A DNA stretch of 64,000 bases from Entoloma clypeatum (lineage: Eukaryota; Basidiomycota; Agaricomycetes; Agaricales; Entolomataceae). The DNA lies in assembly GCA_963565915.1 (NCBI GenBank), contig OY751487.1, positions 4,836,001 to 4,900,000 on the forward strand, given 5' to 3'. The notes under the pieces are model-generated. The model saw only the letters and a program-made list of their open reading frames with translations, was not told the DNA's origin and searched no databases. A program made the translations under genes and the position numbers. This document shows, piece after piece, positions 854 to 64,000 of this stretch. Numbering within the stretch: the first letter of the stretch is position 1; every line of letters begins with the position of its first letter.

Positions 854-874
854 AAGCTCTGTGTCCTCACAGAG

Positions 875-1237: not shown

Positions 1238-1360
1238 GGTGTGGAGGATGTTGGAGAGATAGAGGAAGAATGGAGTAGCTATATTGAAGACGGAGTGGAG
1301 AACTCGGTGGGTTTTTTGACTGATGAGGTCGATGCTGTTGCTGATTTCAACAGGTGTCTT

Positions 1361-4969: not shown

Positions 4970-5010
4970 GCAAGTCCGTTTAATAGATAAGGGTCGCGAC
5001 TTAGCGTCGT

Positions 5011-6650: not shown

Positions 6651-6655
6651 TAACG

Positions 6656-6666
6656 AGATTTAGCAA
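6656..6666 (-). other. Self-complementary primer-binding site of gypsy-A1
   Basis: On the minus strand TTGCTAAATCT starts 2 nt after the 5' LTR. It is the exact reverse complement of AGATTTAGCAA at 6742-6752 in the LTR, which lies about 33 nt after the TATA box, i.e. at the predicted RNA 5' end. No standard tRNA 3'-end match (TGG...) is present. This is the Tf1/sushi self-priming layout. Confidence 0.75.
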
Positions 6667-6668
6667 CT

Positions 6669-7057
6669 TGTTATGCTTAACAAACCGTTCCAAGGTTCGG
6701 GCAGAGTATGCAGGAAAGTGGAAAGGCGAAGAGCAAAGTGATTGCTAAATCTAAGAAATGTAGCTATGGTACATGGGGTTTATATAGTACTGGCTACGAG
6801 CGGTAGCGAGTGAGTCAGTAGCTGCGGAAGGCAGTGCGGATGAGTCAGTAACTGCGGAAAGGCAGTGCGAAGTGAGTCAGATGACTGCGGACTGAGTAAT
6901 CCCTACTGCGGAGTGCGAGTCAGCGCGGGAGCAAAGTATACTAAAGGAGAATGGTAAAGTAAAGGTAAATGAATAAGCGGTCCGATGAGTCAAAGAAATG
7001 ACGAAGGTATAATGCAAGGGAAAAGTGCGTAACATACAAACCGGTAAGTCCGTAACA
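6669..7057 (-). repeat. 5' LTR of gypsy-A1
   Basis: 389 bp partner of 452-840, immediately followed by the CTCCG target duplication at 7058-7062. It contains the promoter: TATA at about 6778-6787 and the predicted RNA start at 6752. Differences from the other LTR are transitions, several in CpG. Confidence 0.93.
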
Positions 7058-26393: not shown

Positions 26394-26699
26394 TGTTGAA
26401 GTTCCACCTGGGCGCTAGCCGCAAGTGTACTGAAGCAACCGGCTACAGTGGAAGTACTCTACGATACCGTTCTGACCACTTACATTGGAGAGGGTGAGGC
26501 TGGTGAGAGCGGTTGAGGCTGGTAAGAGCGATGGAGGCGGTTAAGAGTCAAGAGACAACTTGTTGATATTGACAGTTTCCTGGTCTTATATACCGTACTA
26601 CTGTTTGTACCAACCAAATAAGTATGTAATCGAAGATGTGTAAAGGTCACGTGATATAATCTAATCTAATCTAATCTACGTGATGGAAAAGTTTCAACA
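26394..26699 (-). repeat. 3' LTR of Copia-1
   Basis: TGTTGAA...TTCAACA, 306 bp. It has four AATCT direct repeats beside a TCACGTGA palindrome. On the minus strand it contains a TATA box and, further on, a GTAAGT splice donor (reverse of ACTTAC at about 26479-26484). Confidence 0.93.
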
Positions 26700-26764: not shown

Positions 26765-29700
26765 CTAGTTTTTAAGTAATCCGAAGTACGGGATAAACTT
26801 GCTAAAGAGGACTTTCCCTAGATTCTTAGTTAAAAGGTCTGCAGGGTTATTCACTCCTTCGATGAATTCAACCGTAATGATGCCTTCGGATACTTTTTCT
26901 CTGATGAAGTGGAATCGCACGTCAATGTGCTTGGACCGCTTTTCAGTTACAGGGTTGGATGCGATAAAGACGGAGCCATTGTTATCTCCATAGATCGGGA
27001 CTGATCCGATCTGCATCCCAAGTTCGGCAAGCATGCTTCTAAGCCATGTCACTGCGCGACTGCAATCTGATAGCGCCATGTATTCTGCTTCCGTGGAAGA
27101 GAGGGCAATGGTTTTTTGCGCCGATGAAACCCATGTTACTGCTCCAGATGCCAGCGATACGAAGTAACCAGTGGTGGACTTCCTGGTGTTTTCGTCTGAC
27201 GCCCAATCGGAGTCTGTGAATGCGTAGATTCCTTTCCCAGAATCACCATCGTACATGATCGCGTAATTTTTTGTCGCCTTCAAATACCTGCAAATATCCC
27301 TTGCCACTTCTAAATGGCGTTTGGTAGGGTTTGCGGAGAATTGGGACATTTTGATTACGGCAAAACAAATGTCGGGTCTTGTCCCGATCATTAAGTACAA
27401 TAGTGACCCGATGACGGATTGGTACTTGGATCTGAGTTCCGCATTGGGTTCATCTTCAGACTTCATGGGTTTGTAGCCCGTCAGGAGTGGGGTATGGGTG
27501 GCATTAGATTCGCTCATCCCCATGCGTGCGAGAATTTTCTCAAGGTAGGGTACTTGATCAATGAAGATCCTCTTCCCACGTTGCCTTATTTGGATAGAGA
27601 GAAATTCTTTTGGTTCCCCATCAGGGACTAGGTGGCCTAGGTCCCTACATTCCCATGTTGTCATGAAGGCCTTCTTCTTTTCCAGCGTGTATTCCCGGTT
27701 TGTGCCGAGAAAAGCAGAGTCATCGACATAAATGACGGCGATCACAGTTTCCCCTTTGGTACTTGTGTGAATGAAAACTCCCGCATCGGAGTGAAGCCGG
27801 GCAAAGCCGAGCTTTTTCATGGAGGAATCGAGTTCCCTCCACCAGGCTAATGCGGCCTGCTTGAGTCCGTATAGGGCTTTGTATAGTCGGTACACGAGGT
27901 TTTCTTTCCCTTTTACTATGTAGCCCTCAGGCTGTCGCATGTAAATTACCTCACGGAGTGTTCCATAGAGGAAGGCTGCTGAGACGTCCAAGAGTGTCAT
28001 GAACCACCCTTCAAGGGCTGTCAATGCCAGAATCAATCGGACTGTCTCGTATCTCACTACTGGTGAGAAGATCTGATCGAAGTCAATCCCTTCTACCTGT
28101 GAGAAACCTTTTGCAACAAGGCGCGCTTTCAAACGCCCATCGGATTTTTCGTTGTAAACCCATTTGTTCCTTAGAGCTTTCCTCCCTGTAGGTAGGGGTA
28201 CTAACTCCGTGATCACCCCGCGGCTTTTGAGCATGTCTAGCTCTTTTCGTTCTGCCGCATACCAATCTTCTTTGTTCGGAAGAGAGTATATGTCTTTGTG
28301 TGACATTTCGATGATGCCTACTTGGATGGAGATTGCCTCCATCAGGAGATCGTTCATCCATGCCGTTTGACCGCCCAATCTACGTCTTCGATCCATTTTT
28401 TCAAGATCAGAAGCAGGGGTGTTTTCCCCATAGATGCTGTCTGGCATTCTCCGAACTCGTCGTTCCCTGATCGGTCGATCTGGTACTTGCTCGGGCTCTG
28501 GAGTGGGTACTCGTGGCTCGTCATCGGGCTCACTATGCGGCAAATCATCGTCTGATTCAGGGTGATCCTGTCCAGTGGGAACAGGGTCGCGAGGTTTTTT
28601 GTAATGACTGTCATTGTCATCGTTTCCGGGGATGAGGTCCTCAAACTCATCAGCCGGTTCTGGGTTTTCCATTTCTGGATGGTTCTCTGGTAAAGGGTCG
28701 ATGTGGCATCTAGGGTACTTGCTTTCATCAAAGATAGCTTTCCCACCCATGAAAATTGTATTAGTCTCAGGATCCATGAAACGGTATCCTTTGACCCCTG
28801 GCTTTGATCCGAGATAAATCATCAATCGAGATCTAGACTCCAGGGAATTTCTACGTTTTTCTTTTGGGATATACACATATGCCTGACATCCGAAGACTCT
28901 GATGCTTGACATATCGGGGATCTCATTGGTCACCCTGAAGTAAGGGGTATTCCATTCGAGACGCTGCATGGGGGTTCTGTTGTAGAGAAAAGCTGCATGT
29001 TCCAAACAGAATTCCCACCACATAGGTGGTAAGCACGCGTCGAAGCGCAAGGCCTGAGATTTCTCCCACAGGGCTCGATTTATCCGTTCTGCTCGACCGT
29101 TCTGCTGGTGCTGATACGGGAGCATGACGTCAATCAGAATTCCATGATCGGCAAGTATATCCTTGTATTCGTTAAATTCTCCACCTCCATCAACTCGCCA
29201 TTTCTTAGGAGTGGCGGCGAATTGATTCTGGATCATCGCAAGGAATTGTCGTAGTGCCATGACAGCATCCGACTTCTTCCTAAGCAAGACGACCCAGACG
29301 TGGGATGAAAAATCGTCCAAAAACGTAAGGAAATATTTATATTTGTGATATGATGCCGTGGATATTTGTTTAAGATCGGAATGGATCAGATCAAAGGTTT
29401 TTGTTGCCCTTGTTATCGAATTTGGATATGACTGATTCGGCATTTTCCCTTTGAGGCAACCTGTGCAACTTTCCTGTGATTTCTCATGTACTAGTGTTTC
29501 AGGTACCCCTTTGGTACTGGTGGGAATCTTTCGGAGTGCTTGATCATTTGGGTGACCAAGGCGCTTGTGCCATGTTTCAACAGTGATTTTGCTTGAGATC
29601 GCATGGATCTGGTCATAGCGTATTTCAGTGTCTAACCAGTAAATGGTTTGACCAAGGATGTGGGGCGAAAACTGGATTTTGCTCAGCCCTTTGGAGATGT

Positions 29701-31534
29701 TAATTTCTCCACAAGTCCCGTCTACTTTGTAACCATGGTTAAGGAAGACGCCTAGGGACAATAGGCGTGTGTCCATGTCCGGGATGTAGAACACCGGTCT
29801 GAGAAGATGGGTTTTAATTTCCCCATTTAGGGTGTGCCGTACTGGAACGGCCCCAACTCCGAGTATTTCCAGTTTCTTCCCTTTAGCTGCAGTTTGGACG
29901 AATCGCTTGACCGTGAGAGGTCTATAATATGCGAAGTCCTTAAACTCATAGGTGAAGTGTAAAGAGGCGCTGGAATCTAGTATCCATTGCGCGCGTTCTT
30001 TTTCCTTACAATGTGTACAAGAGGCGAAATGTTTAATATATTTTTTATGTAGATCACTGCTAATGTGATCTACGCACTCTGTACTGGTACTGGCTAATAT
30101 ATTATACGTCTGTTGAGAGGTATTATTAGCATTCCGCAATTGATAAGGTTCAAGAAAGGGTTTCGACGAACCGTCAAGTTCTATCTCATCCTCAAACACA
30201 TCCGGCCCCATCCGTTCCTGGTCGATGTCCATCATCTTCAGCGATTCTTCTATCGACGGGGCTACGCAACGCTGTTTAGCCGGCCTTTCGTCGATGTCAG
30301 GGATGATGGTATCTAAGATACGGAGGTTCGACCCAGAGGGTCGTGCGCCGATTTCTCGGGCAAGCTTTCGTACTCTCTCGTTCTTTTTCCACGCTGACGG
30401 CTTTCCGGAAGGAAGCCCGGTGTACTGAGAGGGAGGCGGGTTCATGCGTTGCAGGAGTGACTGCATTTTTTCTGACTCAGGCTGTGCGGTACTTGTAGTT
30501 TTCCCGCGGCCCGTTACAGTGGTGAAGGCAGGTGCATGATGAGGAGGAAGAGGACAAGGAGCAGGACGACGAAGGGGTTGCTCAATGGCTGGTGCAATAA
30601 ACTCGACCATTTCCTCAGCTTGGTCAGAGTCGTTTTCTGCGTTGTTGGCGCGCTTCTTCTGGTTGCGCCAGCGTCCCTTTCCCTTCTTCTTTTCAGAAGC
30701 GGTACTCGGGTCGGTCGAGTTAGGCTGCTCGTCAGCATTGTTACGCGAGGTACTCGGCGCTGTTTGCTTTTCCCATTTGGGGTCTTGCCCCTTTCGCTTG
30801 GTCCCGGAGATTTTCCGGGCCTGCTCGTTGGACGCCCGAGTAGACCCAATCACATACTTGCGCCTGTACTCCGATACGATGCTGTCGGCAATGGCCTGCC
30901 ATGTGAAGTCATCGGCGTCGTAGACCTGGAAGAGGGCGGTGGAGAGAGACGACCAAGCGTCAGGGATGGCACTTGCCAGGATCATAGCCTGCATCAGGTC
31001 AGGCACGATGAACTTCGCGTCGCTGAGGCGAGCGAAGAGTGATCCGAGGCGCTCGATTTCCGGTACGGGGTCGCGACCCGAGAGCTTGAAGGAGGCAGCA
31101 GCCTTGAAGTCGCCAAAAATGGTGGCGGGGGAGACCTTCGAATACGCGTCTTTCAACGTCGTCCAAGCTTCCTTTGAGGTTGAGGCGTCCTTGATGTGCC
31201 TCCTGATTGCTTCGGAGACTTTGAGACGGATGGAACCCTGAGCCATGTCGTCGTCTCTGATCCAGGCCTTCTTTTCCTTGGCGAAGGCAGGATGGTCGAC
31301 AGTGATAGTGACCGCCGGAGGTTGAGTCGCAGATGTCGCAGATGTCGAAGTGGCTGAGGCAGGGGTGGAGACCGTGACCGTAAAGTCCTTGATGTCGGGT
31401 CGCTCAATGTCGCCGGATACGAGGCGCCAGACTCCTTGATGGAGAAGGTATGACTTCATTTTTTCGGCCCAACTCTGGTAGTCGATGCCGTCGAAGATGG
31501 CGATGGAGTCGAGGGCGGAGCGAGAGGTAGACAT
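26765..31534 (-). CDS. Copia-1 Gag-Pol polyprotein (1589 aa), protease DSG changed to DSS
   Basis: One frame without stops. N-terminal Gag of UBN2 type (WAEKMKSYLL, then HIKDASTSKEAWTTL and IPDAWSSL) is followed by a K/R-rich stretch but no CCHC knuckle. The protease reads WILDSSASLHFTY: D520-S521-S522 instead of D-S/T-G (codon 29969-29971). Integrase has an H-H-C-C finger (HKRLGHPND...CTGCLKGKM), then HSDLKQ, VDGGGEF and NGRAERIN as D-D-E. RT has FSPVVRYETVRLILAL and YVDD starting at Y1269. RNase H ends with DSDWASD, SSTEAEYMAL and DNNGSVFIASNP. Copia-2 and Copia-3 both have DSG, so the glycine change is probably inactivating and recent. Confidence 0.93.
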   Translation of the reverse strand: MSTSRSALDSIAIFDGIDYQSWAEKMKSYLLHQGVWRLVSGDIERPDIKDFTVTVSTPASATSTSATSATQPPAVTITVDHPAFAKEKKAWIRDDDMAQGSIRLKVSEAIRRHIKDASTSKEAWTTLKDAYSKVSPATIFGDFKAAASFKLSGRDPVPEIERLGSLFARLSDAKFIVPDLMQAMILASAIPDAWSSLSTALFQVYDADDFTWQAIADSIVSEYRRKYVIGSTRASNEQARKISGTKRKGQDPKWEKQTAPSTSRNNADEQPNSTDPSTASEKKKGKGRWRNQKKRANNAENDSDQAEEMVEFIAPAIEQPLRRPAPCPLPPHHAPAFTTVTGRGKTTSTAQPESEKMQSLLQRMNPPPSQYTGLPSGKPSAWKKNERVRKLAREIGARPSGSNLRILDTIIPDIDERPAKQRCVAPSIEESLKMMDIDQERMGPDVFEDEIELDGSSKPFLEPYQLRNANNTSQQTYNILASTSTECVDHISSDLHKKYIKHFASCTHCKEKERAQWILDSSASLHFTYEFKDFAYYRPLTVKRFVQTAAKGKKLEILGVGAVPVRHTLNGEIKTHLLRPVFYIPDMDTRLLSLGVFLNHGYKVDGTCGEINISKGLSKIQFSPHILGQTIYWLDTEIRYDQIHAISSKITVETWHKRLGHPNDQALRKIPTSTKGVPETLVHEKSQESCTGCLKGKMPNQSYPNSITRATKTFDLIHSDLKQISTASYHKYKYFLTFLDDFSSHVWVVLLRKKSDAVMALRQFLAMIQNQFAATPKKWRVDGGGEFNEYKDILADHGILIDVMLPYQHQQNGRAERINRALWEKSQALRFDACLPPMWWEFCLEHAAFLYNRTPMQRLEWNTPYFRVTNEIPDMSSIRVFGCQAYVYIPKEKRRNSLESRSRLMIYLGSKPGVKGYRFMDPETNTIFMGGKAIFDESKYPRCHIDPLPENHPEMENPEPADEFEDLIPGNDDNDSHYKKPRDPVPTGQDHPESDDDLPHSEPDDEPRVPTPEPEQVPDRPIRERRVRRMPDSIYGENTPASDLEKMDRRRRLGGQTAWMNDLLMEAISIQVGIIEMSHKDIYSLPNKEDWYAAERKELDMLKSRGVITELVPLPTGRKALRNKWVYNEKSDGRLKARLVAKGFSQVEGIDFDQIFSPVVRYETVRLILALTALEGWFMTLLDVSAAFLYGTLREVIYMRQPEGYIVKGKENLVYRLYKALYGLKQAALAWWRELDSSMKKLGFARLHSDAGVFIHTSTKGETVIAVIYVDDSAFLGTNREYTLEKKKAFMTTWECRDLGHLVPDGEPKEFLSIQIRQRGKRIFIDQVPYLEKILARMGMSESNATHTPLLTGYKPMKSEDEPNAELRSKYQSVIGSLLYLMIGTRPDICFAVIKMSQFSANPTKRHLEVARDICRYLKATKNYAIMYDGDSGKGIYAFTDSDWASDENTRKSTTGYFVSLASGAVTWVSSAQKTIALSSTEAEYMALSDCSRAVTWLRSMLAELGMQIGSVPIYGDNNGSVFIASNPVTEKRSKHIDVRFHFIREKVSEGIITVEFIEGVNNPADLLTKNLGKVLFSKFIPYFGLLKN

Positions 31535-31896
31535 TTTAGATGAATCTAAGAAAGGGTTCCCAATCAGTGATGTGTTATGAATATGATTTAAGAAAACAAT
31601 TAAATGATTCCTTATGACATATTCCCTTTAGGAATAGCGGTCACGGGAAAACCCTTTATATGTCAGAAATGTATAAGGTGCGATCAACGTTTCCACATGG
31701 AGTGTACTAGGTCAATCCCCTTAGGGACGTCTCATGACAGGTACTTGTCGTAATGATGTTCCCAGGTTCATATGTGAAGAAGTAAGACTCAGAACCTAGA
31801 TCTTTCGATCGGTTCTTCGCCAACCAGGGTAGAGTGGGCAGGTACTCGCTGTTGCCAGCGTTTCCCAAGTCCCTCTGCTATCCGGGGCCCATAACC
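31535..31896 (-). promoter_or_regulatory. Copia-1 leader with iMet primer site and predicted leader intron
   Basis: The primer-binding site GGTTATGGGCCC (31885-31896) complements the anticodon arm of initiator methionine tRNA, as in Drosophila copia, which uses a half tRNA. A 3' splice-like sequence (CCCTTTCTTAG) ends at 31546, 12 nt before the gag ATG. With the GTAAGT donor at 31986 in the LTR it would define a 441 nt intron that removes the primer site. No protein-coding frame is seen in this leader. Confidence 0.6.
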
Positions 31897-32202
31897 TGTT
31901 GAAGTTCCACCTGGGCGCTAGCCGCAAGTGTACTGAAGCAACCGGCTACAGTGGAAGTACTCTACGATACCGTTCTGACCACTTACATTGGAGAGGGTGA
32001 GGCTGGTGAGAGCGGTTGAGGCTGGTAAGAGCGATGGAGGCGGTTAAGAGTCAAGAGACAACTTGTTGATATTGACAGTTTCCTGGTCTTATATACCGTA
32101 CTACTGTTTGTACCAACCAAATAAGTATGTAATCAAAGATGTGTAAAGGTCACGTGATATAATCTAATCTAATCTAATCTACGTGATGGAAAAGTTTCAA
32201 CA
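31897..32202 (-). repeat. 5' LTR of Copia-1 (promoter LTR)
   Basis: Partner of 26394-26699. TATA box at about 32089-32096, transcription leftwards, splice donor GTAAGT at 31986-31981. Followed by the GCATC duplication. Confidence 0.93.
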
Positions 32203-35776: not shown

Positions 35777-37428
35777 ATGCACCCTATCTCCTCTTCCCAC
35801 AAGGAAAACATTCTTTCTCTGGCCTCCAATGGTCACTCCACTCGTCATATTGCCTCTAACCTGGGTATCAGCCAACCAACTGTCTCCAGAGTGCTTCAGA
35901 ATCTTCTTCCTCATCGCAATCTCTCTTCTGGTGGTCGTCCATCCAAGCTTTCTCCCACCAACACACGAAACATACTTTCACAAATCACCTCAGGGAGAGC
36001 CTCCAATGCTGTGCAGGCTACCAAACACACATCAGGAAAAAAACCTGTTGCTACAACAACTATAGTGCAAGTTGGCTGATATCTTGCACTATATAGTGTG
36101 ACATAGCACTATAGCTGCCATACACTCTTGTTTTTTTTCCTGGTGCATCAACACTGTCATCTCCAATCCTGTCTCCCCAGAAACTGTGAGAAGGGTTCTC
36201 AGAAAACATGAATTCAAGGCTGTAACAAAGAAGAAAAGACCTTTCTTAAAGGCCATACATCGGAAGAGGCGGTTGGCATTTGCTATGAAGCACAGGGAAT
36301 GGACAGTGGAGGACTGGAAGAGGGTCATTTGGTCAGATGGCAAGGAATGGGTCTGGAAAAAGAAGGGTGAGGGGCTTATTGAAAGAGAGGTTCAGGGCAC
36401 AGTCAAGTTTGGGGGAGGAACTATTATGGTTTGGGGTTGTATGGGTTGAGAAGATGTGGGGAGACTTGCAGAGGTTGAGGGGAGGATGGATGCTGATCAG
36501 TATGTGTCCATTTTGGAGGACAATTTGCTGCCCAGCATGGAGGAGAGTGGAATCTCTGAAGAGGAGATCATTTTTCAGCAGGACAATGACCCCAAGCACA
36601 CCTCCAAGAAGGCCAAAAAATGGATGGACAGCAAGAATATTGCTCTGCTGGATTGGCCTCCACAGTCCCCAGACCTCAATCCTTGTTGAAGTTCCACCTG
36701 GGCGCTAGCCACAGGTGTACTGAGCAATATAGCTACAGTGGAAGTACTCTACGATACTGCTATGGTCACTTACATGGTTTGGAGGGGGTAAGGCTAGTGA
36801 GAGCGGTTGAGGCTGGTGAGAGCGATGGAGCTGGTTAAGAGTCAAGAGACAACTTGTTGATATTGACAGTTTCCTGGTCTTATATACCGTACTACTGTTT
36901 GTACCAACCAAACAAGTATGTAATGAAGATATGTAAAGGTCACGTGATGTAATCTAATCTACGTGATGGGAAAAGTTTCAACAATCCTATTGAACACCTC
37001 TGAGTTCATATTAAAAGGAAGTTGAATGAATATCCAACACCACCCAAGGGAGTCTGGGAGATTTGGGACAGAGCAGCAGAGGTGTGGAATAATATAGAGC
37101 CAGAAGTGTGTCAAAACCTGATAGAAAGTATGCCAAGAAGGGTAGAGGCAGTAATCAAAGCTAAGGGGGGTAATACCAAGTACTAAAGTATAAAATACTG
37201 TATTTATTGTACATACTCACAAAACTGATTCAATGAGTCCCTGGAGTAATTTGATCATATATTGATCATTCTTTATGGGAATTACATAATTATTGCAAAT
37301 TCTGAGAGCCCTGAAGCAGGGCTTTTAACCAGGTACCAATACCTTCTTTTGATTGGCATTATTTGCAAAGTTATTTTGAAGGTATTCACAAAGTAGCAAA
37401 CATTGAATCAGTTTTGTGAGGCACTGTA
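35777..37428 (+). mobile_element. Tc1/mariner-like element with broken DD34E transposase
   Basis: Transposase pieces: helix-turn-helix (ENILSLASNGHSTRHIASNL and GISQPTVSRVL, then GGRPSKLS) at 35777-36040, and VSPETVRRVLRKHEFKAV at 36170 on. The catalytic D lies in VIWSDGKEW, the second D in FQQDNDPKHTS, and the E in DLNP/IEHL, 34 residues later. That last motif is split by a solo LTR. Damage: an insertion with a hairpin at about 36056-36115, a stop (TGG to TGA) near 36448, and TGA for W after IEHL. The right terminus is CACAAAAC-type TIR ending GCACTG-TA at 37401-37428; a reverse copy lies inside at 37215-37234. The left TIR was not found. It sits in a gypsy RT fragment. Confidence 0.82.
36684..36983 (-). 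repeat. Solo LTR of the Copia-1 family
   Basis: 300 bp, TGTTGAA...TTCAACA, with the 5 bp duplication ATCCT (36679-36683 and 36984-36988). About 90% similar to the Copia-1 LTRs, with fewer AATCT repeats. The GTAAGT donor is conserved. It splits the Tc1 codons for DLNP and IEHL. It marks an older Copia-1 insertion lost by LTR recombination. Confidence 0.92.
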
Positions 37429-38551: not shown

Positions 38552-38967
38552 CACTCCTGACACTGAAAAGTTTTTCTGGAGGAAAAATTCATTATGAAAG
38601 AGGAATCCTCTTTCCTTTGGGTATATCTTTAAGAAAGATACAAAGTATTTTATATGGAAATTTTCAAGAAACATGTAATGTTTTTTCCAAATATTTTTGG
38701 CCAAAAAACTTTTTGTTTATCCTACAGTTTTTCTTGAGGAAAAACCAGATCCATTGTTTGGACAATGGAATAAGTTTATCTTTGAGAAAAACTCTTGGAA
38801 AAATGAAAAGTTTTACCAGAAGAAATACTTTGGAAACACATTATATGTTTCCTAAAATTTTCTATATGAAATACTTTGTATCTTTCTCAAAGATACACCC
38901 AAAGGAAAGAGGATTCCTCTTTCACAATAGATTTTTCCTCCAGAAAAACTTACCAGTGTCAGGAGTG
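38552..38967. repeat. 416 bp near-perfect palindrome (foldback/MITE)
   Basis: Left arm from CACTCCTGACACTG and right arm ending CAGTGTCAGGAGTG. The arms pair over about 200 nt each, including GAAAGAGGAATCCTCTTTCC and GAAAGATACAAAGTATTT, meeting near 38765 with almost no loop. The 207-codon plus frame across it is a by-product. Confidence 0.85.
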
Positions 38968-48419: not shown

Positions 48420-50025
48420 GTGGATTGGTTGACTGATCAGATCAATGTGGTGATGGGTCTTGGTCTGATGCTTTTATTGTGGGCGAGACGGGTTCTGCCG
48501 ATGGAAATCCTGGATCAGTTCTCGAGCGTTCTGGACATTAGTCTGAGGTTCCCATCTATTTTCTTCTGGGCCATACACTTTCCATTGGACAAGGTACTGG
48601 ATCTTTCCGTGGAATTTCCAAGAGTCCAGGATCATGGAAACATGGTACTCTTCTCATCCTTCAACAATGATCAGATCAGGGGCTGGTTTCTTCTTCTGGA
48701 TGGCATACTTTGGAGTTTTGTATGGTGACAACAGGGTCTCATTGAATACAGGGTGAATCATTTTCCAAGTCCTTGGAAGATCAAGGAGGTATGTGCTAGC
48801 TCCTTTCTTCTCCAGGACTTTGAATGGTCCATGTTGGAGTGCATCAAGTTTCTTCAAGGAACTGTCAGTCCTGATGTTAGTCCCTTCTAGCCACACCTTG
48901 TCTCTGATGTGGTAGTCCCGAGACGGACTTCGCTGTGTGTCAACTGTCTTCTTCATCTGATCCTGTGCTTGTTTCAGCACAGCATTGGCTTCTTCTCATG
49001 CCTGTTTGAGTTTTTTCAAGAAGTCGTTGGCAGCTGGATTGGTATCTTCTAACACGAGCTCTCCCTTCCAAGGATGTAAACTGTAGTTGAGATAGAATGG
49101 TGTGTGCTTTATTGCCTGATGTTCTTTGTCATTGTACTGGAATTCTGCAATTACAATCCATTTCTTCGAATGTCTATCTGTGATGACCAGAATTGCATTC
49201 TTTCCATCAGATTCTGGTATTGGTCCCACGACATCAATCCCTATGTCTTCCCATGGATGACTTGGTGCTGCATGGGGGTGTAATGGAGCACGTTGTTTCT
49301 GTCTGTTGATTTTGTTGTGTTGACAGGTGTCACAACCCTTCACCTACTTCTTCACATCATGCAGGATGGTAGGCCACCAGTAGGTATGAGTGAGGAGTTT
49401 GTGCATCCGATACTGTCCTGGATGTCCAGCCACTGGTGCATTGTGTGATTCAAACATCAGTTCCTGACATAGTTGTGGGTCCGGTGGAACATAGATTCGT
49501 TTCCCTGCATAGGTGATGCTGTTTTCCTGTTGGAACCAATGAGGATTCTTCTTTAGACCCTGGGCTACTTCTGTCTCCATGCGGTTCGAAGCCTTGATGT
49601 GTGCAATCCATGGGTTTTTGATGATTGTGACGTTTCCAATCTTGATGGAATCAGATGTTTCACCCTCTTCAAAGAATTTTCCTCCATGAACATCTCCATC
49701 TGTACCACATCTCCTGATTCCAATCATTTCAAGAATAGTCCCTCCTTGAGCATTTGGTCACTGTCTTGTGGTTCGAGTTCCGTTTCATACCAGGATAAGC
49801 GCGACAAGATGTCCACTCAGCACTTTCGCATTTGTCTTGCCAGGCACGTGCCATAATTCAACGTCATAGTCTTGTAACTTCATCTTCCAGCGCCTTTGTC
49901 ATTGATTTAGGTCTTGAGGATGATGGAAATACTCCAGGTTCTTGTGATCAGTTAAGATCTCAAAGCATTCCTTGGCTTCAAGCAGATAGTGTCTCCAATC
50001 TTTCAATGCTTCCATAACTGCCAAG
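48420..50025 (-). pseudogene. pol: Gypsy-A3 integrase/RNase H remnant
   Basis: Frames with WLEGTNIRTD, ASTYLLDLPRTWKMIHPVFN, WEDIGIDVVGPIPES and HPGQYRMHKLLTHTYWWP. The core between DRHSKK and WIVIAEFQYND is missing, removing two of the three catalytic acids. Several frame changes near 49700-49900. Confidence 0.85.
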
Positions 50026-50374
50026 TGTTGAACATATTGCCAGATATGTCGCACTATGTGCTTGTCACAGGAAGTGACTATAAGTCACTATTACCATATA
50101 TGTGAGTTTATGGTATAACCACGGACGCATGACTTGTTTATGTATTGTTTGTACAATGGTCCATGCGCATATTGGATTAGTATAAATACCCATGTATTTA
50201 GTACGGTGAATCCTAACTTCTTGAACACCCCAGTTCTTTGAGTTAACTAACAAGCTAGTACAGCTTCTAGATTTCCTTTAGTTACTCTTAACCAGGTTAG
50301 TTGAGCTTCCTTCATGCCTTCGTACCGTTACATCTTGAGCGCCCTTTGGGCTGCCTATGTCGGTTACATCATTA
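50026..50374 (+). repeat. 5' LTR of Copia-2
   Basis: TATAAATA at 50181-50188. A splice-donor-like CCAG/GTTAGT has its GT at 50296-50297. The first ATG after the expected RNA start is 50314, that of the leader ORF. Confidence 0.92.
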
Positions 50375-51150
50375 GGTTATGGGCCCCGGCCCTAGCGCCG
50401 CATGCTCTGAGTATCTTAGCTTTTGCGCTATTATTGGCAGCATCTGCTTTGTATGCTAGCCTGGAGACTGGTTTCCTCAGTATCGAATACATCGAGCTCG
50501 ATGGTTCCCTTAACGGTGAACCTCGCAGTGTTCGAGGTATTGAATGTACCTTTCAGTGGGTCATTCTTGATCGATTACTTGAGAGAATCCCTGTTACATT
50601 GATCGTATCACGAGAGCAAGTCCATATGGTGCCAACGGCACAGGGCTCAGTCCCTTCAGGTCTTGATGACAATGGACGCATCGTTGCACGTTGCGGGGTG
50701 TGTCGACAACTTGTTGTTGACAGTCAGCATTGCCCAAGGCATTGCATAGACAACACCACTTTTGACTACTCGTGTACTACATGTGATGCAGGAACAGCAA
50801 GGGCTCGAGTTCTAAACCGCAGACGGCATAATCGCCATACTGAGGTACCTGTTGCGGTACCTACCCAAGATGGAGATCCCACGGATCCTCTGCCCGTGTA
50901 TGTTGATGATGGGACCATCCCTGAAGCACACGGAGCACCTCCTCTTTCGCCTCCGACCCGACAAGTTCGGTTGCCGGATAATGACCCCTTAATTGAGGCG
51001 GCGAACAGAGCGAATGAAGTCATGCTCCCTATTCAGGGAGGATCTTGCACCTGTGGGCAACACAGCACTCAGGGCGCACATGACGATTGGGTAGAACTAG
51101 TGATGGCGTTTCATATGCTACCACTAGACCAAACAGAGAACGAAGAATGA
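50314..51150 (+). CDS. Copia-2 leader ORF: membrane and cysteine-rich protein (278 aa), unknown
   Basis: Starts 61 nt before the end of the 5' LTR and runs through the primer-binding site. Residues 6-20 and 28-48 are hydrophobic (YILSALWAAYVGYII and ALSILAFALLLAASALYASL), probably two membrane segments. Cysteines C127-x2-C130, C140, C144 and C154-x2-C157 form a zinc-ribbon-like cluster, followed by a basic stretch (RARVLNRRRHNR). The rest is acidic and proline-containing, ending in LPLDQTENEE. I recognise no family; no protease, RT or envelope motif is present. Its ATG is first on the RNA, so it would be made from unspliced genomic RNA, while gag-pol would need splicing or reinitiation. Whether it is conserved in other copies cannot be judged here. 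Confidence 0.7.
   Translation: MPSYRYILSALWAAYVGYIIRLWAPALAPHALSILAFALLLAASALYASLETGFLSIEYIELDGSLNGEPRSVRGIECTFQWVILDRLLERIPVTLIVSREQVHMVPTAQGSVPSGLDDNGRIVARCGVCRQLVVDSQHCPRHCIDNTTFDYSCTTCDAGTARARVLNRRRHNRHTEVPVAVPTQDGDPTDPLPVYVDDGTIPEAHGAPPLSPPTRQVRLPDNDPLIEAANRANEVMLPIQGGSCTCGQHSTQGAHDDWVELVMAFHMLPLDQTENEE
50375..50386 (+). other. Primer-binding site of Copia-2 (initiator tRNA half)
   Basis: GGTTATGGGCCC (continuing CCGG), identical to the Copia-1 site and complementary to the anticodon arm of initiator Met tRNA. Confidence 0.8.
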
Positions 51151-51239
51151 TGATCGACAAGGCAGCTCGTCTATTTATTTTCTGATGCGCTTTTTTGATA
51201 TAACATATGCTGACTCTATTTATGTTTCACAGCATCATC

Positions 51240-54200
51240 ATGTCTTCAAACTCAAAACTTGACCTTGCTTCCTCCGTTCCCAAACTCACCACCACAAACT
51301 TCTCCATCTATCAGGAGAAGATGAGCGCCTACCTGAAGGCAGCTAAAGTGTGGAGGATCGTCACCGGCGATAAAAAGATCCCAGCTGATCCTAAAGAGAC
51401 AGATTTCCAAGACAAGTTAAACACTTGGCATGAACAGGACGATCAGGCCCAAGGCCTAATTCAGATGTCCATTTCGGACTCTCTTGTCCATCACATCAAG
51501 GGAGCTAAAACCTCCAAGGAGATGTGGGACCTGATCGCCACTAAACTGTCCACGGTCGGCCCGTCCACCGTTTTTGCTGATTTTCAGCAACTCCTCCGCA
51601 CCTCTCTTTCTCCTGCTGATCCTTTATCTGGCATCGACAAGATGCAGACCCTTTTTCAACGACTCGAGCACAACCACATAGACATCCCCAAGTTCGTCCG
51701 GATCATGATGATCCTGAATGGACTGCCTCAAGGCTATGATGGTCTAGTACACAGCATCCTTTTTGATGCGGTACACTATGTAGCGCCTGGTGGCAATCAA
51801 GCTACTGTACTCAAAATCGGGAAAGTAATCGAGCAAATACGCTCGAAATACTTCCATAAAAACCCGCACGCTCCACAGTCCCAAGGAGGCGCTCACGCGA
51901 ACAAAATCTCTGCGGTAAAATGCGCTTGTCCCAATCCCCCGAAGTACCAGCCTCGCACTGGACCCTCTCAGGGATCTTCGGAAGGACCGGCTGCTAACCA
52001 GCAGCATTCGCATCAGCACTCCAAGCCCTGGAAAGGCAAGGGACGTGGAACTTCCGCCGGGAAGACCAAGGGCAAAGGGCCCTGGAAAGGTAAAGAGAAG
52101 GCGCATTTTGCCTCCTCTGCCATGGATAGCGCCCCTGATGGGCAGCTTCCAATCCAGACCTTACCCAGCATGGTCATTTACGGAAATGGGTCTATCTTCA
52201 CTCCGCACCCCTCATCATCCACCGACTGGAGGATAAGGAACAACCAATCGCTTGCGATCGGTAGTGTTCCTGGCCCAGGCCCTTTCACGGACCTGGATGG
52301 AGCGCGCACACTAGCTAACAGCATTGGTGTCCCTCCAACAGCTCAGAATCTAACTCGCCTCGTCGAGGTCCCTGCACTTCAACGTAATGAAGCTGCAACG
52401 TCAAGGCCGCTCTCAGCGCCTCCGACAATGGACCCCCGGAATCACCGCATTCCGGTTTTTGAAGAAACACCGAGTAGAATCAGCTGGGCCAATGAGATGG
52501 AAACAGAAGACATAGCCCCCACCATAAGGGGCTATTATGATGAAGGATACGTCGATAACTATATGGAGTATGAAGTTTCCCGTGGTGATGGAAACAACGA
52601 CGACATGGGGTATGTTTCACATTCAACAGCATGTACAATGCAGTTAACAAATACTTCACAGAAGCCTCTTTGGAGACGAGTGAATGGATGGCGGTCCAAT
52701 GTATTTTTATCACCTGCTGTACACGTGCTTATAGCGCAAATAAATTCTCATTATGCGAATTGTGCTGAATGTAAGAAACAGAATCAATCCAATTGGATTC
52801 TTGATTCAGGTGCATCATTGCACTTCACTTATGATATCAATGATTTCATTGAGTATACCCCACTAAAAGATCATCAATCTGTGCAAATTGCACAGAAAGG
52901 TCACACTATTCAGATCCTTGGACAAGGAACGGTGTTGATTAATCATACCATCAAGAAAAACGGGCGAGAACAAAATAAAATAACTCGTCTATCACCCGTT
53001 TATTATATACCAGATTTAGACGTTCGTCTTTTATCTGTAGGCGAGATCCTTAAACAAGGAAATGAAATTAGCGGACAATTTGGTTCGATCACGCTAAAGA
53101 CCAATTTAGGTCTTCCTTTGTTTATGTGTTATCCTCATAAGGCAAATGAATCGATTTATTGGCTAAATGCCACGATCATTAAAGAGGAACGAATACACTT
53201 GGTTAGTCTTAGTGTCTCGCAATCTGTTGATTATGACACCTGGCACAAGCGATTCGGACACCCTTCACATGAAGTACTACGACATGCTTCTAAACATGTC
53301 AAAGGTTTCAATGGAGTGGACAGACCGTCCACTGAGCGACCCTGCAAAGGATGCGCTCTTGGAAAGATGCCTTCAAAATCTTTCTCACCATCTCAGACAC
53401 GCGCTAAAGCACCTTTTGAGCTAATCCATTCGGATTTAAAGCAATTCAAAAAGGCGACTTATGGCAAATATAATTATTATATCAGCTTTGTTAATGACTA
53501 CACGTCACACGCCTGGATCTCTTTATTGAGACTAAAATCCGATGCACACTCTGCACTTCGTGATTTTAATGCCATGGTTAAAAACCAATTCAATACGACA
53601 ATTAAAACTTGGCGTTTTGATGGCGGCGGTGAGTTTGTCCTTTTCCAAGCAGATATGCGTGAGATGGGAATCCAGGGTGAAGTTACTGTGCCGCACCAGC
53701 CACAACAAAACGGTCGTGCGGAACGTTTTAACAGAACTTTAATGGATAAAGCACTTGCTATGTTGCATGATGCTTGCCTACCCGAAATATGGATTCAATT
53801 TGCGGTAGAACATGCACTTCACTTGTATAACCAAACTCCATTGAAAAGACATGGATGGCTTACTCCGTATGAGTCCCTTAAAAAGGAAAAGCCTGATGTG
53901 TCGAACCTACACGTTTTTGGGTGTGGTGCTTACGTCTTTCTTCCAAAAGAAATTTGTACTACCACCGCTAAATCCGAACTGATGATTTTCATTGGATTTA
54001 AAACTGGAACTAAAGGTTACCGGTTTATGCGGATGCCAAACAACGTGGTCTTCATAGGTGTCACAGCAATGTTTGATGAACAGCTGTTCCCAAAATGTTC
54101 TACATTGAACAAAATACCTTCGATAACACAATACCATGATCCAACATCAGACGATATGGGAAACGATGATGCAAATGGACATGATGGCCCGTCTGATTTA

Positions 54201-56366
54201 CCAACCCACGATTTCCATTCGGAAGACAATGATGCACATGGTCCTGGCGGTTCACATTACCCGTCTAATCCAGGAACCCATGATGACAATCATAACCTCC
54301 CTGATACAAATAGCGACCAAACTGGTCAGCTTCCCGAAGGTTCCAGTCAGACTTCTGATGGAACAAACAGACAGGACACCGCTGAGAATCAGCAGTGGGT
54401 TCCCCGGACTCGCAATCCAGGGAAACGTGTGCGCACAGATGCACCAAACGATGATCATGCCTTACCAGGAGATTATCGCCCACAGACTGATCGTCCTCGT
54501 CGTACTCGGGTTATACCCCAGCGTCCTGGAAATGTTTACGGGAATAACCCGGCTGAGGCCTTGCGTCAAAATCAGCGTGATTGGAGCAGAACCGTTCAGG
54601 AGGATTCACGGCGATACGCCTATAATCCCCGATCGGAGACCAGACCCCAGCAATCTGGCGCTGATCCATCAACTAGCTCCGCTGATCCTCAGATGTATCA
54701 GAACAATTCCAATCCGAATTCAGATATAGATATGGAGGAATTACTCTATATTAGGGAAGGGGGAGGACAGTCACAAATGCTTGCGCACTTGCTATCTAAA
54801 GCAATCCCTGCATATGACGAAATTCCACAAGACCCAAAGTCTTGGCAAATGAAGGACATAAATAAGCTACCTGAAAAGGAAAAGCTTGAATGGAAAGCAG
54901 CATGCCGTGAGGAACTAGAAGCCCTCCGGAAGCGCAATGTCTTTAAGTTGGTTGACCTGCCTAAAGGTCGTAAAACCATCAGAAATCGATGGGTATTCGA
55001 CGTCAAAACTGACGGATGAAAGAAGGCACGACTCGTTGCCAAGGGTTTCTCACAGATCGAGGGTATCGATTTTGATGAGATCTTCTCACCTGTGATACGT
55101 TTCGAGACTATCCGAATCCTCTTCGCCGTAGCTGCGCTTGAAGGATGGGTGATTGAAGGAGTAGATGTCAAATCAGCTTTTCTCTATGGAGAGCTCGATG
55201 AGGAAATCTATATGAATCAACCCGAAGGCTTTGTTGTCAAAGGCCAAGAACGGAAGGTCATCCGTTTATTAAAAGCACTCTATGGCCTAAAACAGGCTGC
55301 GAGAGCGTGGTGGATCGCGCTCAATGCATCAATGGAGAAGCTAGGTTTTACTCGATGTAGAACCGACTCAGGCGTCTTTGTTTACCACAACAAACAATCA
55401 GGTGATTTGATAATCGCTTTGATCTATGTTGATGACGGCCTGTTCATGGGATCAAACCCAGATCTTGTTCGCAAGATAAAATCTGACTTTAAAAATAAAT
55501 GGGAAAGTCGTGATCTTGGTATTGCTAAAGAATTCTTGCGTATGAGGATACGACAAGATTCAGAAAAGCAGATCGTAACAATCGATCAGTCAGAATACCT
55601 AAAGAAGATCATTAAGTGCTTTGGCTTAGAAAATGCAAAGGCTGCTGACACTCCACTCCCAAAGGGTTATTACCCTGCACCAAATGAGGGGGAGGTGGAT
55701 CCCACACTCAAAACAAGGTACCAAATGATCATTGGATCGTTGTTGTACTTGTCCATTGGAACGAGACCGGACATTGCTTTTGCAGTTGCAAAAATGTCAC
55801 AAATGTCTGCAAACCCTTCCAAAGAGCATGAGAAATACGCTCTACAGATTATCAGATATCTTGTTGGTACTCAAGACTATTCTATAATCTATGATGGTCG
55901 ATCCAAAGCTTCCTTTGAAGCATGGACAGATTCAGACTGGGCGTCAGACCCATCTGATAGAAAGTCCCAATCGGGATATTTCCTTAAGCTTGCAGGAGGA
56001 CTTGTTCTTTGGAAAAGTCGCAAGCAAAAGACAGTGGCACATTCGTCCACTGAGGCGGAAATGGTTGCTGCCAGTGAATGTTCGCGGGAGTGCGAATGGG
56101 TTACTCATCTCTTCAAAGAGCTTGGACTACAGGACATTACCAAAATGCCGTTCCATGTAGATAACCAAGGCGCGATTTTCAATGCGCAAAACCCAGTCAC
56201 TGAAGGCAGAACCAAACATATAGCAATCCATCACTTTGCTATACGCGATAGAGTTAAAGATGGATTGATCGAACCACGGTTCGTTCCGGGAACAGAGAAT
56301 CCGGCTGATATGTTTACCAAGCCACTTGGTCGCCAGGAATTTGAAAAATTCCGTGCTCTACTCTGA
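51240..56366 (+). pseudogene. Copia-2 Gag-Pol, one in-frame TGA
   Basis: I start Gag at 51240 (MSSNSKLDLASS), because it aligns with the starts of Copia-1 and Copia-3 Gag; the 11 codons before it lie in the predicted intron. Gag has TSKEMWDLIATKL and a K/G-rich tail without CCHC. Protease WILDSGASLHFTY (D at 52803). Integrase has WHKRFGHPSHE, CKGCALGKM, HSDLKQF, FDGGGEF and NGRAERFN. TGA at 55017-55019 in DG*KKARLVAKGF, where the family has arginine; the same frame continues. RT has FSPVIRFETIRI and YVDDGLFMG. RNase H has DSDWASD, SSTEAEMVAAS and DNQGAIFNAQNP, ending at 56366. Otherwise intact, so one base change separates it from a full frame. Confidence 0.92.
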
Positions 56367-56430: not shown

Positions 56431-56779
56431 TGTTGAACATATTGCCAGATATGTCGCACTATGTGCTTGTCACAGGAAGTGACTATAAGTCACTATTACC
56501 ATATATGTGAGTTTATGGTATAACCACGGATGCATGACTTGTTTACATATTGTTTGTACAATGGTCCGTGCGCATATTGGATTAGTATAAATACCCATGT
56601 ATTTAGTACGGTGAATCCTAACTTCTTGAACACCCCAGTTCTTTGAGTTAACTAACAAGCTAGTACAGCTTCTAGATTTCCTTTAGTTACTCTTAACCAG
56701 GTTAGTTGAGCTTCCTTCATGCCTTCGTACCGTTACATCTTGAGCCCCCTTTGGGCTGCCTATGTCGGTTACATCATTA
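56431..56779 (+). repeat. 3' LTR of Copia-2
   Basis: Partner of 50026-50374. The leader-ORF start is present here too but runs into flanking gypsy sequence. Followed by CCAAG. Confidence 0.93.
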
Positions 56780-57223
56780 CCAAGAGCTCCTTGTCATATA
56801 TCTTGTAGTTCTGTTTGGCCGCGGACATGGTCCGTGACAAGAACATGATGGGGTGCCATTTGTCGTCCTATTTCTGAGAGAGGACGGCTCCAATTGCATA
56901 GCCCGATGCATCAGTTTTGACCCTGAACTGCCCATCTGGTTTTGGTAGTGCCAAGACTGGCATCGATGTGATTGCCTGTATGGGACCTTCGAACACTTTT
57001 TGCTCTGTTGGTCCCCAAGTAAACATAGTGCCTGCCGCCTGTGAGTGCAGTGAGTGGTTTTGCAATGTTGGAGTACCCTTCAATGAATTGTCGATAGAAG
57101 TTGGCAAACCCAAGAAATATCTGGACTTCTTTCTTTGATGAGGGTGCTTGCCAGTTTCGGATCGTATCCACCTTCTCAGTTTCCATCTTGATGTGTCCTT
57201 CTCCAACAACATATCCCAATATA
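56780..57223 (-). pseudogene. pol: Gypsy-A3 RNase H/RT remnant
   Basis: Continues from 50025. [36 protein letters not shown] and [20 protein letters not shown]. Ends abruptly at 57223, within the sequence that reads ATATTGGGATATG in A1. Confidence 0.85.
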
Positions 57224-58471: not shown

Positions 58472-58761
58472 TGTTGGAACAGCATACGATCACATCAATG
58501 CTGGAGGTGATCACAGCGGATGCGTTGTCTTGCAGTCCTAGTATACTCTATGCTACGCGCTACAGATCGTGTATCTACGATAGAGAGAGATCCTACTACT
58601 AACCTTGAGAGGTGTTTGCAGGTGGGGGTTACTCAGTAAGAGCGTTATATTGCACAGAGAATAAGGACAGTCTTATATACTAGTCTACTTATTTGTACAC
58701 TATTTGTACATCATGGGGTTGAGCACATGGCACGTCTAATGGAAGCGGAACTCGTTCAACA
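58472..58761 (-). repeat. 3' LTR of Copia-3
   Basis: TATA (reverse of 58671-58680) and a splice-donor-like AAG/GTTAGT with the G at 58603. Left flank is the minisatellite. Confidence 0.9.
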
Positions 58762-61700: not shown

Positions 61701-63741
61701 TGTATTTACCCAGTATATTGTCGAACTGGGAAAATGAGGTTCACATCTTAGTACACACTTTCCATCTTTGAAGAAACTAAGATTGTCAGCTGAGCCAGCA
61801 ACATTTAATCCAGATTCTTGAAGAATTTCGCCCATCGACATGAGGCAAGTGGAAAGCTCTGGGATGTGTAGAGCCGGATAAAGCCGAGTCGTTAGACTTC
61901 TTGGCTTTCCTTGACGCAATGGTATCGTGTGAGTGATAAACACGGTCCCTCTTCCATTTATAGAGATCTTTGCTTTGCCCGCAGTTTGGGCAGTACGGAC
62001 AGATTTCTCTTCTTCGTGCATTGCAAAGTCACTCATCTCTGCGGTGAAGTGCATACTAGCGCCGGAATCCATGATCCACTCAGCGTCATTAGTATCTTTG
62101 GATTTGTTCTTACATTTTGAACATGAAGCAAAATGATCATATATTTCCTCCATGAAGGAGGCAGCAACGACAGGTGATTTTAAATAACTACGACCCGGTT
62201 CTAGTGACTCATCACGATTCTGGGTGTGTTCTTCTGTCATTGTGTGCTCATGTGAAACTTGTGAAAGAACATACCTCAGGTCGTTGCATGATGATCCTCC
62301 GAAAAGCTCGTTGTCGACTTCATCTGCCCAACTGAAATGCATCCGCTTGGATGGTCCAGGTTCATCTTCATCATACTCGTATTCCTCATCGAAGTCCATC
62401 ACGGTATCGGCATTATAATCTTGGCGTTCCATTAGGAACAGGGAAGCCTCGTCCATTACCTCATTGTCAGGGGTCGAATATATCCCCAGAATGTCTTCAG
62501 GGTATATGACATTATTGATGTTTTGGAGGGTCTGGGATGTTCCCACAATGCCAAGAGATGTGACAATGTCGCGCACTGCCTGCATCTCAGGGTACATCGA
62601 CGGTTGATTTACCGGAGCACCTGTGAAGCATTGCGCAGATGTGTTTGTCATGTGATCGAGGAGTTCTCTTGCACCAGCAGTCATGATGTGTTCAGCGGGA
62701 CTAGATGTCAACCGCGATTTGAGGGGAGGAGGACGACGGGGGTCAGTCATTGGAGTAGAAGATTGTTGGGGGGGGGATGACGCGTCCTGAGCCTGTGACA
62801 GTGGTGAAGGGAAATGTTGGCAGATTCATAGTCATTGCCAACGAGGCAATATGAGAGCAGCCGGCAGTGTCACCTGCAGCAGCCTCTTGGGCGCGCTGGG
62901 CCTTTTTCCAACTCCGCGACCCTTCCTTTTTGGGTACAAACGGCTGCTTCTTGTTTTGATCACCGGAATTGTTCAATGGTGTCTCTTTTGCCTTTCCTTC
63001 TCCTTTGTTCTGTTGATGAGGTTTGCCGGAATTCTGGTTTGACCCAGAAGCATCAGCAGGTCCCAGACCATTGCGCCAGGGGGGTCCCTGTCCTTTCCGC
63101 TTGACAGCGGAGATCTTGTTGGCAGCCGGAAGTTGTGCTTCGGCTTGTATGCGCATATGCTCCGTGGTTACAATCTCTTCAACATCTGTAAGTTTGAAAG
63201 TATCTAACTTCCATTCTTTGGCCAGATGCGAACCAAGATGTTTCCACTTGGGAGGTAGACGGTGCACAGCAAGCATCCCTTGCAATTTAGGAGCGAAGGG
63301 GATCTTGTGCCCGTCAAGGCGTGCCAAGAGATCACAGAATTTAGAAAATTCCGGACGGGGGTCACCACCAGTCAGGTGCCAATTGAGAGTCAAGGCGAAG
63401 TCCTTGAACATCTCATCAGGGCCTTTGTTCTCAAAGAGAGTTTTCAGCTGATCCCAAACCTCTTTCGAAGTCTGGAATGCTGTAACCTCATGCTTTACAG
63501 ACTCCACCAGAGATAAGACGATTGTGCAGCGCGCTTTCAAGTCTTTCTCCTTCCACTTGCGGAACTCCTTTCGTTGTTCAGACATCGAAGCAGCTGTCAG
63601 GGAGGTTGGCTGTAACCAGTCCCCAGATACGAGCATCCAGGTCCCTTCAAACTGTAAAAACCCTGTCATCTTATCGCTCCACTCCTTCCAGTTAGAGCCG
63701 GTCATCTTGACGACAGTGGATTTGTAATCAAAAGAAGACAT
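58789..63741 (-). pseudogene. Copia-3 Gag-Pol, broken
   Basis: Gag from 63741 (MSSFDYKSTVVKMTG) has FQTSKEVWDQLKTLF and a K/Q-rich tail without CCHC. A run of nine C (63 nt region near 62769-62777) shifts the frame between VTGSGRVIPPP and PMTDPRRPPP. Protease WIMDSGASMHF near 62070. Integrase has WHQRFAHPGKD, CRPCAEAKL, HSDLKEFP, VDGGGEF and NGRAERIN. RT has YVDDAMFMG near 59735. RNase H has TDSDWASNE and DNHGSIFIGNNP. TGA stops at 61098-61100, 60159-60161 and 59203-59205 each stand where arginine is expected (MRF, SRW, RRS). Further frame changes lie near 60780, 60060 and 59110. Confidence 0.9.
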
Positions 63742-64000
63742 GATTTGATGCGAAGGGTGAGAGCGCAAAAGACTGGAAATAGAATGTGTCAGTCGCATGT
63801 CAAATCACTGGATCTTAGATGAAACAGGGACACAGCAACATGTGTTTTACTCCACTAGGGTCCATCAGACCCCTATTCCACATTTAACATCATACACAGA
63901 GTTAACTGGTAGACACATGTATGGAGGCAGATGGGCATCGCGATCATCGGGGTATTATCGCCCGGATCTGCTAGCTCATCACGCTACACGATGATGTGGG
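63742..64000 (-). promoter_or_regulatory. Copia-3 leader with splice-acceptor-like sequence
   Basis: On the minus strand CGACTGACACA followed by TTCTATTTCCAG ends at about 63776, some 35 nt before the gag ATG. No long ORF in the visible 259 nt. The 5' LTR lies outside. Confidence 0.5.

Follow-up and report, generated by a model that had tools for sequence, protein, structure and literature searches.

Predicted leader introns that enclose the primer-binding site in copia retrotransposons of Entoloma clypeatum

How the transcript of a retroelement is divided between translation and reverse transcription ranks as a major question for the authors of a study of BARE (PMC3735527). It is raised by a 64,000-nucleotide stretch of contig OY751487.1 of the fungus Entoloma clypeatum (assembly GCA_963565915.1, positions 4,836,001 to 4,900,000 of the forward strand; hereafter the window), which is rich in long terminal repeat (LTR) retrotransposons and belongs to a genome of 60 Mb. 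A sequence-only reading of the window had proposed that three copia families, Copia-1 to Copia-3, carry a leader intron whose removal would separate a spliced gag-pol mRNA from the unspliced RNA used as the template for reverse transcription. At the level of sequence, the proposal is partly supported: a host-type intron that encloses the tRNA primer-binding site (PBS) is predicted in the three named families and in a fourth, Copia-4. It is rather probable that leader splicing divides mRNA from template in these elements and that the intron-retaining RNA of Copia-2 is, in addition, the mRNA of a further open reading frame (ORF), termed ORF0.

In Copia-2, which lies on the plus strand, the 5′ LTR spans 349 nt (50026..50374) and harbors a TATA box at 50181-50188 that reads TATAAATA in 38 of the 39 other copies compared. 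With the transcription start assumed 30 nt past the TATA box, predicted exon 1 (50211..50295) is free of ATGs in the window copy and ends at the donor GTTAGT (50296-50301). The predicted leader intron of 937 nt (50296..51232, GTTAGT...CACAG) contains 27 ATGs, the PBS GGTTATGGGCCCCGG (50375..50389), the 278 codons of ORF0 (50314..51150) and a branch-site-like CTGAC (51210..51214). Its acceptor ends at 51232, and 7 nt separate it from the gag ATG at 51240.

Copia-1 is found on the minus strand. The donor GTAAGT (31986-31981) follows the TATA box (32095-32088) inside the 5′ LTR (31897..32202), and the predicted intron of 441 nt (31546..31986, GTAAGT...CTTAG) encloses the PBS (31896-31882). A branch-like CTGAT (31567-31563) precedes the acceptor CTTTCTTAG, which ends at 31546 and is followed after 11 nt by the ATG at 31534. 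Copia-3, likewise on the minus strand, reaches beyond the window. Its 3′ LTR (58472..58761) carries a TATA box (58679-58672) and a copy of the donor, GTTAGT (58603-58598), and its gag start (62743..63741, ATG at 63741) is preceded by a branch-like CTGAC (63792-63788) and the acceptor TTCTATTTCCAG (63773..63784), 31 nt before the ATG. Compared with full LTRs, the 5′ LTR outside the window (locus L009) lacks its upstream part, the TATA box included; donor and PBS are kept there, and the PBS again falls within the predicted intron, just outside the window.

All donors and acceptors that the sequence-only reading had named for the three families sit where it placed them. Its spacing between acceptor and gag ATG is exact for Copia-2 and has to be shortened from 12 to 11 nt in Copia-1 and from about 35 to 31 nt in Copia-3. 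The position of the PBS inside the intron, claimed for Copia-1 and Copia-2, is found in both and extends to Copia-3. The claim that each donor lies downstream of a TATA box applies to Copia-1, Copia-2 and the 3′ LTR of Copia-3 and fails for the truncated Copia-3 5′ LTR; the Copia-3 donor at 58603 does lie in an LTR, but in the 3′ copy.

Conservation of donors and acceptors among genomic copies had been named as a check, and the leader intron withstands it in copies that are mostly best-scoring matches and hence closest relatives. The Copia-2 sample consists of 39 other copies from the best 40 of 113 candidates, picked by intron similarity (the fortieth is the window copy). The donor GTTAGT, the acceptor AG and a branch-like CTGAY (CTGAC in 12, CTGAT in 27) are present in all 39, the PBS in 38; exon 1 is ATG-free in 37, and every intron contains 25-31 ATGs. 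For Copia-1, 20 regions from the best 40 of 1608 matches yielded 17 copies with a leader, as three (L052, L059 and L060) match in the LTR only and were left out; 22 copies drawn from the 30 PBS matches described below bring the sample to 39. Donor and TAG are each kept in 17/17 similarity-picked copies, and the full sample shows GTAAGT in 39/39, YAG in 37/39 and CTGAT in 36/39. The pyrimidine tract is variable in length, and the AG is mostly kept. In Copia-3, strict patterns detect the donor in 18, the acceptor in 19 and the exact PBS in 15 of 20 copies, taken from the best 40 of 256 matches. Of the two copies in which the strict pattern detects no donor, L083 does contain the hexamer, with an altered flank. 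Exon 1 is ATG-free in 11 of the 15 copies of this sample in which it could be measured. The copies share the sequence features of a spliceosomal intron, namely GT...AG, a branch site and a pyrimidine tract.

Exact matches to the PBS pattern number 1046 across the genome, against 0 for the reversed control, and the first 30 of them by genome position form a sample that is independent of similarity. GT[AGT]AGT lies at most 160 nt upstream of the PBS in 28 of the 30, and 22 combine a donor with an acceptor that has a branch motif and stands ahead of an open frame beginning with ATGTC. Under these criteria the acceptor is missing in six matches that do have a donor (L100, L103, L107, L114, L119, L123), and the two donor-less matches are an LTR cut short (L115) and a locus without a long frame that is unlike the three reference leaders (L106). 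The fourth family, Copia-4 (L101 and L127), is absent from the window and was found in this sample. It shows the same layout, with the donor GTGAGT 50 nt before the PBS, an intron of about 1.3 kb and the acceptor TTTGCTGACCACTGTTTCTTTTAG (L127), followed by 8 nt and the gag ATG. Ten more copies, from the best 40 of 92 matches, keep the acceptor in 10/10 and the donor in 9/10 (L138 differs there).

Gag N-terminal pieces (80-200 aa) of the four families are 25-29% identical. The LTRs are without real similarity between families except for Copia-2 and Copia-4 (75% over 170 nt); the next best match covers 29 nt (E 0.01). The main support for the intron is that deeply diverged families share the complete arrangement. 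A chance expectation was derived from 2000 dinucleotide shuffles per family, scored for a donor between TATA+30 and the PBS together with an acceptor and branch motif at most 45 nt from gag. Both occur in 0.5, 0.2, 0.5 and 0.3% of shuffled leaders of Copia-1 to Copia-4 and in 4/4 real leaders; these figures are a yardstick and no blind test, because the criteria were set after the sites, those of Copia-4 included, had been seen.

Start-stop pairs overlap the donor in two families. In Copia-1 an ATGTAA (31983..31988, minus strand) does so, and its ATG is kept in 36/39 other copies; the Copia-4 donor (L101, L127) likewise overlaps ATG/TGA. Splicing would split these minimal upstream ORFs. A conserved start-stop ORF over the donor was set aside as a feature, as the ATG is missing in 3/39 Copia-1 copies.

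The PBS, GGTTATGGGCCCCGG in Copia-1 and Copia-2 and GGTTATGAGCCCTGA in Copia-3, shows 14 nt of complementarity to the anticodon arm of a mature initiator-Met-like tRNA. Drosophila copia uses the 5′ half of initiator-Met tRNA as its primer, which pairs through the anticodon region. A pattern search finds seven initiator-Met-like tRNA genes (L070-L076), six with GGGGCCCATA and one (L071) with AGGGCTCATA. In all seven, an inserted stretch separates CATA from the ACC that comes with the pairing stem and GATCGAAAC; because the PBS match spans this tRNA intron, it is present only in the mature tRNA. The pattern matches seven places without mismatch and six with one, against 5 and 3 for the reversed-pattern control. 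Two earlier tRNA patterns had no match in the genome, probably through spanning the tRNA intron, and ARAGORN called no tRNA in the seven pattern-found loci. The match to the anticodon region is the sequence pattern that half-tRNA priming predicts; such priming would also involve a cleaved primer.

The number of ATGs in the predicted introns of Copia-1 to Copia-4 is 5, 27, 16 and 22, respectively, with 7.4, 14.6, 8.2 and 20.1 expected. A gypsy element of the window (452-7057, minus strand), for which Retrotrans_gag is encoded at the matching ORF of an inverted near-copy, serves as a comparison. Its leader of 879 nt (TATA+30 to the ATG at 5877) has 1 ATG against 10.8 expected, as low as in 0/2000 shuffles, and harbors neither a donor of this kind nor an acceptor accompanied by a branch motif. 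By these counts the gypsy element, a single case, seems to keep its long leader scannable, whereas the copia leaders look unscannable unless they are removed, Copia-1 with five ATGs being a mild case.

The proposed mechanism starts with a Ty1/copia transcript whose host-type leader intron would extend from an LTR donor located downstream of the TATA box to an acceptor 7-31 nt before the gag ATG. Removal of the intron would eliminate the PBS and nearly all AUGs ahead of gag and leave a short-leader Gag-Pol mRNA that cannot be primed. RNA that keeps the intron would retain the PBS and become the template for reverse transcription, and splicing would in this way sort transcripts into mRNA and genome. 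This presupposes that splicing occurs and is partial, and Gag-Pol would come from spliced RNA only. Scanning ribosomes would reach gag first on spliced Copia-2 RNA and ORF0 first on the unspliced form; as ORF0 begins at the first AUG of the latter, intron retention would switch on a second product. The description of unspliced RNA as template is thus incomplete for Copia-2, in which it probably doubles as the message for a conserved protein of 278 codons. ORF0 would be translated from this retained form, which is likely a messenger in its own right.

No other ATG stands between the assumed start site and that of ORF0, which is located 18 nt downstream of the donor and still within the LTR; residues 1-20 are encoded by the LTR. 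An in-frame stop at 50302 precedes the ATG, and the frame crosses the PBS. ORF0 is no extension of Gag, because it ends before gag and is in a different frame (offset 2). Among the 39 other Copia-2 copies the ATG is kept in 39 and ORF0 is full length in 29; gag is open over its first 153 codons in 32. The pairwise dN/dS is 0.29 for ORF0, 0.66 and 1.45 for the other frames, 0.13 for gag and 0.71 for U3 read as a frame. Variable sites at codon positions 1/2/3 number 58/41/90 in ORF0 (chi-square P 5e-5), 56/40/89 in gag and 36/31/31 in U3 (P 0.77). These patterns indicate that ORF0 is under purifying selection. Seven cysteines (127, 130, 140, 144, 157, 245 and 247) show no variation across 30 sequences; at C154 the only alternative is Y. 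The structure model, built from 21 close sequences, is poor (mean pLDDT 34.5, pTM 0.17); its better part is confined to two N-terminal helices, 3-23 and 29-51 (blocks at 49-74), the second of which is strongly hydrophobic.

Homologs of ORF0 were not found at E <= 1e-3 among 2635 candidate proteins, nor were matches, to envelope proteins or others, in Pfam, PHROGs or PDB sequences. Scans of viral and genome contigs with six short peptides, which detect close relatives only, gave no match either. A tblastn comparison with the Copia-4 leader returned short matches only (best E 3.0). About 680 nt past the PBS, the Copia-4 intron (L101, L127) contains an 86-codon cysteine-rich ORF that starts with MKGSCIC. 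A GSC-x-C motif is likewise present near the ORF0 C-terminus, but tblastn gives no significant match.

Several points weigh against the proposed splicing switch. In the Copia-1 LTR and leader, 25% of hexamers are as invariant as the donor, and donor conservation alone was for this reason rejected as proof. The Copia-1 acceptor hexamer is matched or exceeded in conservation by 92.5% of hexamers, a low standing that results from the varying pyrimidine tract; against such a background, conservation by itself proves little. About 118 element copies were covered in total, set against the 1046 exact PBS matches of the genome. One ATG occurs in exon 1 of 4/15 measurable Copia-3 copies, and an ATG-free exon 1 does not reach significance by itself (0 ATGs observed against 0.5-1.0 expected) and depends on an assumed transcription start. 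Intron ATGs are in excess in Copia-2 and Copia-3 and slightly under expectation in Copia-1 (P 0.23). The leaders of Copia-1 (window copy and 17 others; longest frames 16-38 codons), Copia-3 (17/20 copies measurable; 24-36 codons) and Copia-4 (two copies; 86 codons) have no frame of the size of ORF0, so that the ORF0 part is known for Copia-2 only. The splice sites, finally, are predictions from the DNA sequence. Intron-less genomic copies were sought with junction patterns of Copia-1 and Copia-2 as direct proof of splicing, and none was found; the single match to the Copia-2 pattern, with 2 mismatches, is the ordinary acceptor of copy L031. Such copies may be missing because spliced RNA without a PBS is never copied, or equally because no splicing takes place.

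The last two points would suit elements that do not splice at all, in which ribosomes get to gag on the full-length RNA through internal entry, shunting or reinitiation and the sites are chance or relics. This is improbable, as both sites occur in 4/4 families against 0.2-0.5% per shuffled leader, with a branch-site-like motif in place, and as 27 ATGs and a 278-codon ORF precede the Copia-2 gag. More plausible, if still unlikely, is constitutive splicing of a 5′-untranslated-region intron that merely clears upstream AUGs. The genome RNA would then consist of escapees, with neither regulated RNA fates nor a role for retention. The 5-27 ATGs in the introns fit this explanation, and the sequence shows no sign of splicing regulation. 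A post-PBS intron could clear many of these ATGs, though, and yet the donor is upstream of the PBS in 4/4 families; moreover, ORF0 in the Copia-2 intron is under selection, and the retained form therefore seems useful. A second promoter past the PBS could also supply a short gag-pol mRNA and make the intron irrelevant. Separation of RNA pools by two promoters is documented for the TATA pair of BARE (PMC3735527), but for the families here it is the least probable of the explanations, since it leaves LTR donor, branch site and acceptor unexplained.

A splicing switch between messenger and genome has partial parallels in other retroelements. Cauliflower mosaic virus (CaMV), a DNA-genome virus with many ORFs, is the nearest functional parallel, as it shares a leader donor, a PBS and a downstream acceptor with the copia families. 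In the CaMV 35S RNA the Met-tRNA PBS is near the leader end and the acceptor in ORF II, and for ORFs III-V, which include CP and RT, spliced RNA is the more likely template of translation (PMC5902531). Splicing would, in our interpretation of this paper, remove the PBS. The CaMV acceptor lies inside ORF II, whereas the acceptor here is directly before the structural gene, and no ORF0-like ORF that overlaps the PBS appears in the excerpts of PMC5902531. The barley Ty1/copia element BARE1 separates translated from reverse-transcribed RNA and also splices (PMC3735527). Its separation is achieved via two TATA boxes and capping instead of leader splicing, and its intron of 104 nt at the gag end gives a Gag-only mRNA; PBS removal is not described in the available part of that paper. 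By 2013 splicing was established for copia and BARE, where it yields a Gag-only mRNA (PMC3735527), and Arabidopsis EVADE forms a spliced subgenomic RNA on the same plan (PMC12786077). Drosophila copia and EVADE are copia elements like the families here. In them, however, splicing of the subgenomic RNA cuts out pol/protease parts and gives Gag only, while full-length RNA gives Gag-Pol, the reverse of the model proposed here.

Foamy viruses and HTLV-type retroviruses have their major splice donor in R, within the LTR and ahead of the PBS, and translate Gag from unspliced RNA. The Pol protein of foamy viruses is translated from a spliced transcript; a figure marks mSD and PBS without confirming their order (PMC7828637). 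In the copia families Gag too would need splicing, unlike in these viruses. Additional proteins are encoded by other elements; the plant gypsy element Ogre has an ORF1 before gag. Cer1 of C. elegans encodes CERV, which is needed for nuclear export of the genomic RNA (PMC10309623). ORF0 would be a further extra protein, with the difference that its frame starts in the LTR and that unspliced RNA would be its message. Searches of an open-licence library, at the level of listings beyond the papers named here, yielded no PBS-removing copia leader intron and no ORF within one; a prior description may exist among subscription papers or in Repbase-type entries, which lie outside this scope. Splicing terms are absent from a review of plant centromeric CRM elements (PMC3059260), and the terms 'upstream of gag' and 'intron' are absent from the excerpts of a review on extra ORFs of plant elements (PMC7264820).

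If leader splicing operates as proposed, the answer to the opening question would be written in the DNA: the mRNA physically loses its priming site. The predicted arrangement is broader than in the sequence-only reading, as the Copia-3 PBS, the fourth family and ORF0 are added. ORF0 would contribute a selected retrotransposon protein without known relatives, whose coding sequence overlaps the PBS. Its role is a matter of guesses; it could serve the genome-fate RNA in retention, export or packaging, or could represent an accessory protein or one of env type. A bolder version is put forward tentatively, as possible yet somewhat doubtful. In it, leader splicing is the messenger/genome switch of several deeply diverged copia lineages, and Gag-Pol arises solely from PBS-less RNA. 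The Copia-2 ORF0, cysteine-rich and with a hydrophobic N-terminus, would arise from genome-fate RNA only and could act in cis on RNA retention, export or packaging, and the LTR would unite promoter, 5′ exon, donor and N-terminal coding region. If the donors work, LTRs might furthermore be portable promoters with a first exon that could splice into neighboring genes. The Copia-1-family solo LTR of the window (36684..36983, minus strand), which retains a TATA box and ATGTAAGT, is one that could act in this way.

The remaining parts of the elements are as follows. Copia-2 continues with an open frame for gag and the first part of pol (51240..55019), a separate open frame for the rest of pol (55212-56366) and the 3′ LTR (56431..56779) with its donor copy (56701-56706), all on the plus strand. 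Its LTR pair is 98.6% alike, and the target-site duplication CCAAG is located at 50021-50025 and 56780-56784. The Copia-1 Gag-Pol frame encodes 1589 aa (26765..31534, minus strand) and is followed by the 3′ LTR (26394..26699); this LTR pair is 99.7% alike, with a GATGC target-site duplication on either side. A Pfam scan detects gag, rve, SH3 and RVT_2 in this order in a single frame in Copia-1 and over two frames in Copia-2; in Copia-3, of which gag only was scanned, it detects a copia-type Gag (PF14223). Copia-1 and Copia-2 are Ty1/copia elements by their Gag (PF14223), integrase before RVT_2, matched LTRs, target-site duplications and PBS. A single TATA box per LTR was noted by eye.

The hairpin-like motif GCGCCCTTTGGGCTGC occurs once per Copia-2 LTR (50339-50354 and 56744-56759, with one mismatch in the 3′ LTR), and several near-copies are distributed along the Copia-4 leader (L101, L127). 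A role of this motif in packaging or dimerisation is conceivable. Elsewhere in the window, at 38552-38967, a hairpin-like inverted repeat is formed by two arms of 206 nt that are 82% complementary and lie 4 nt apart.

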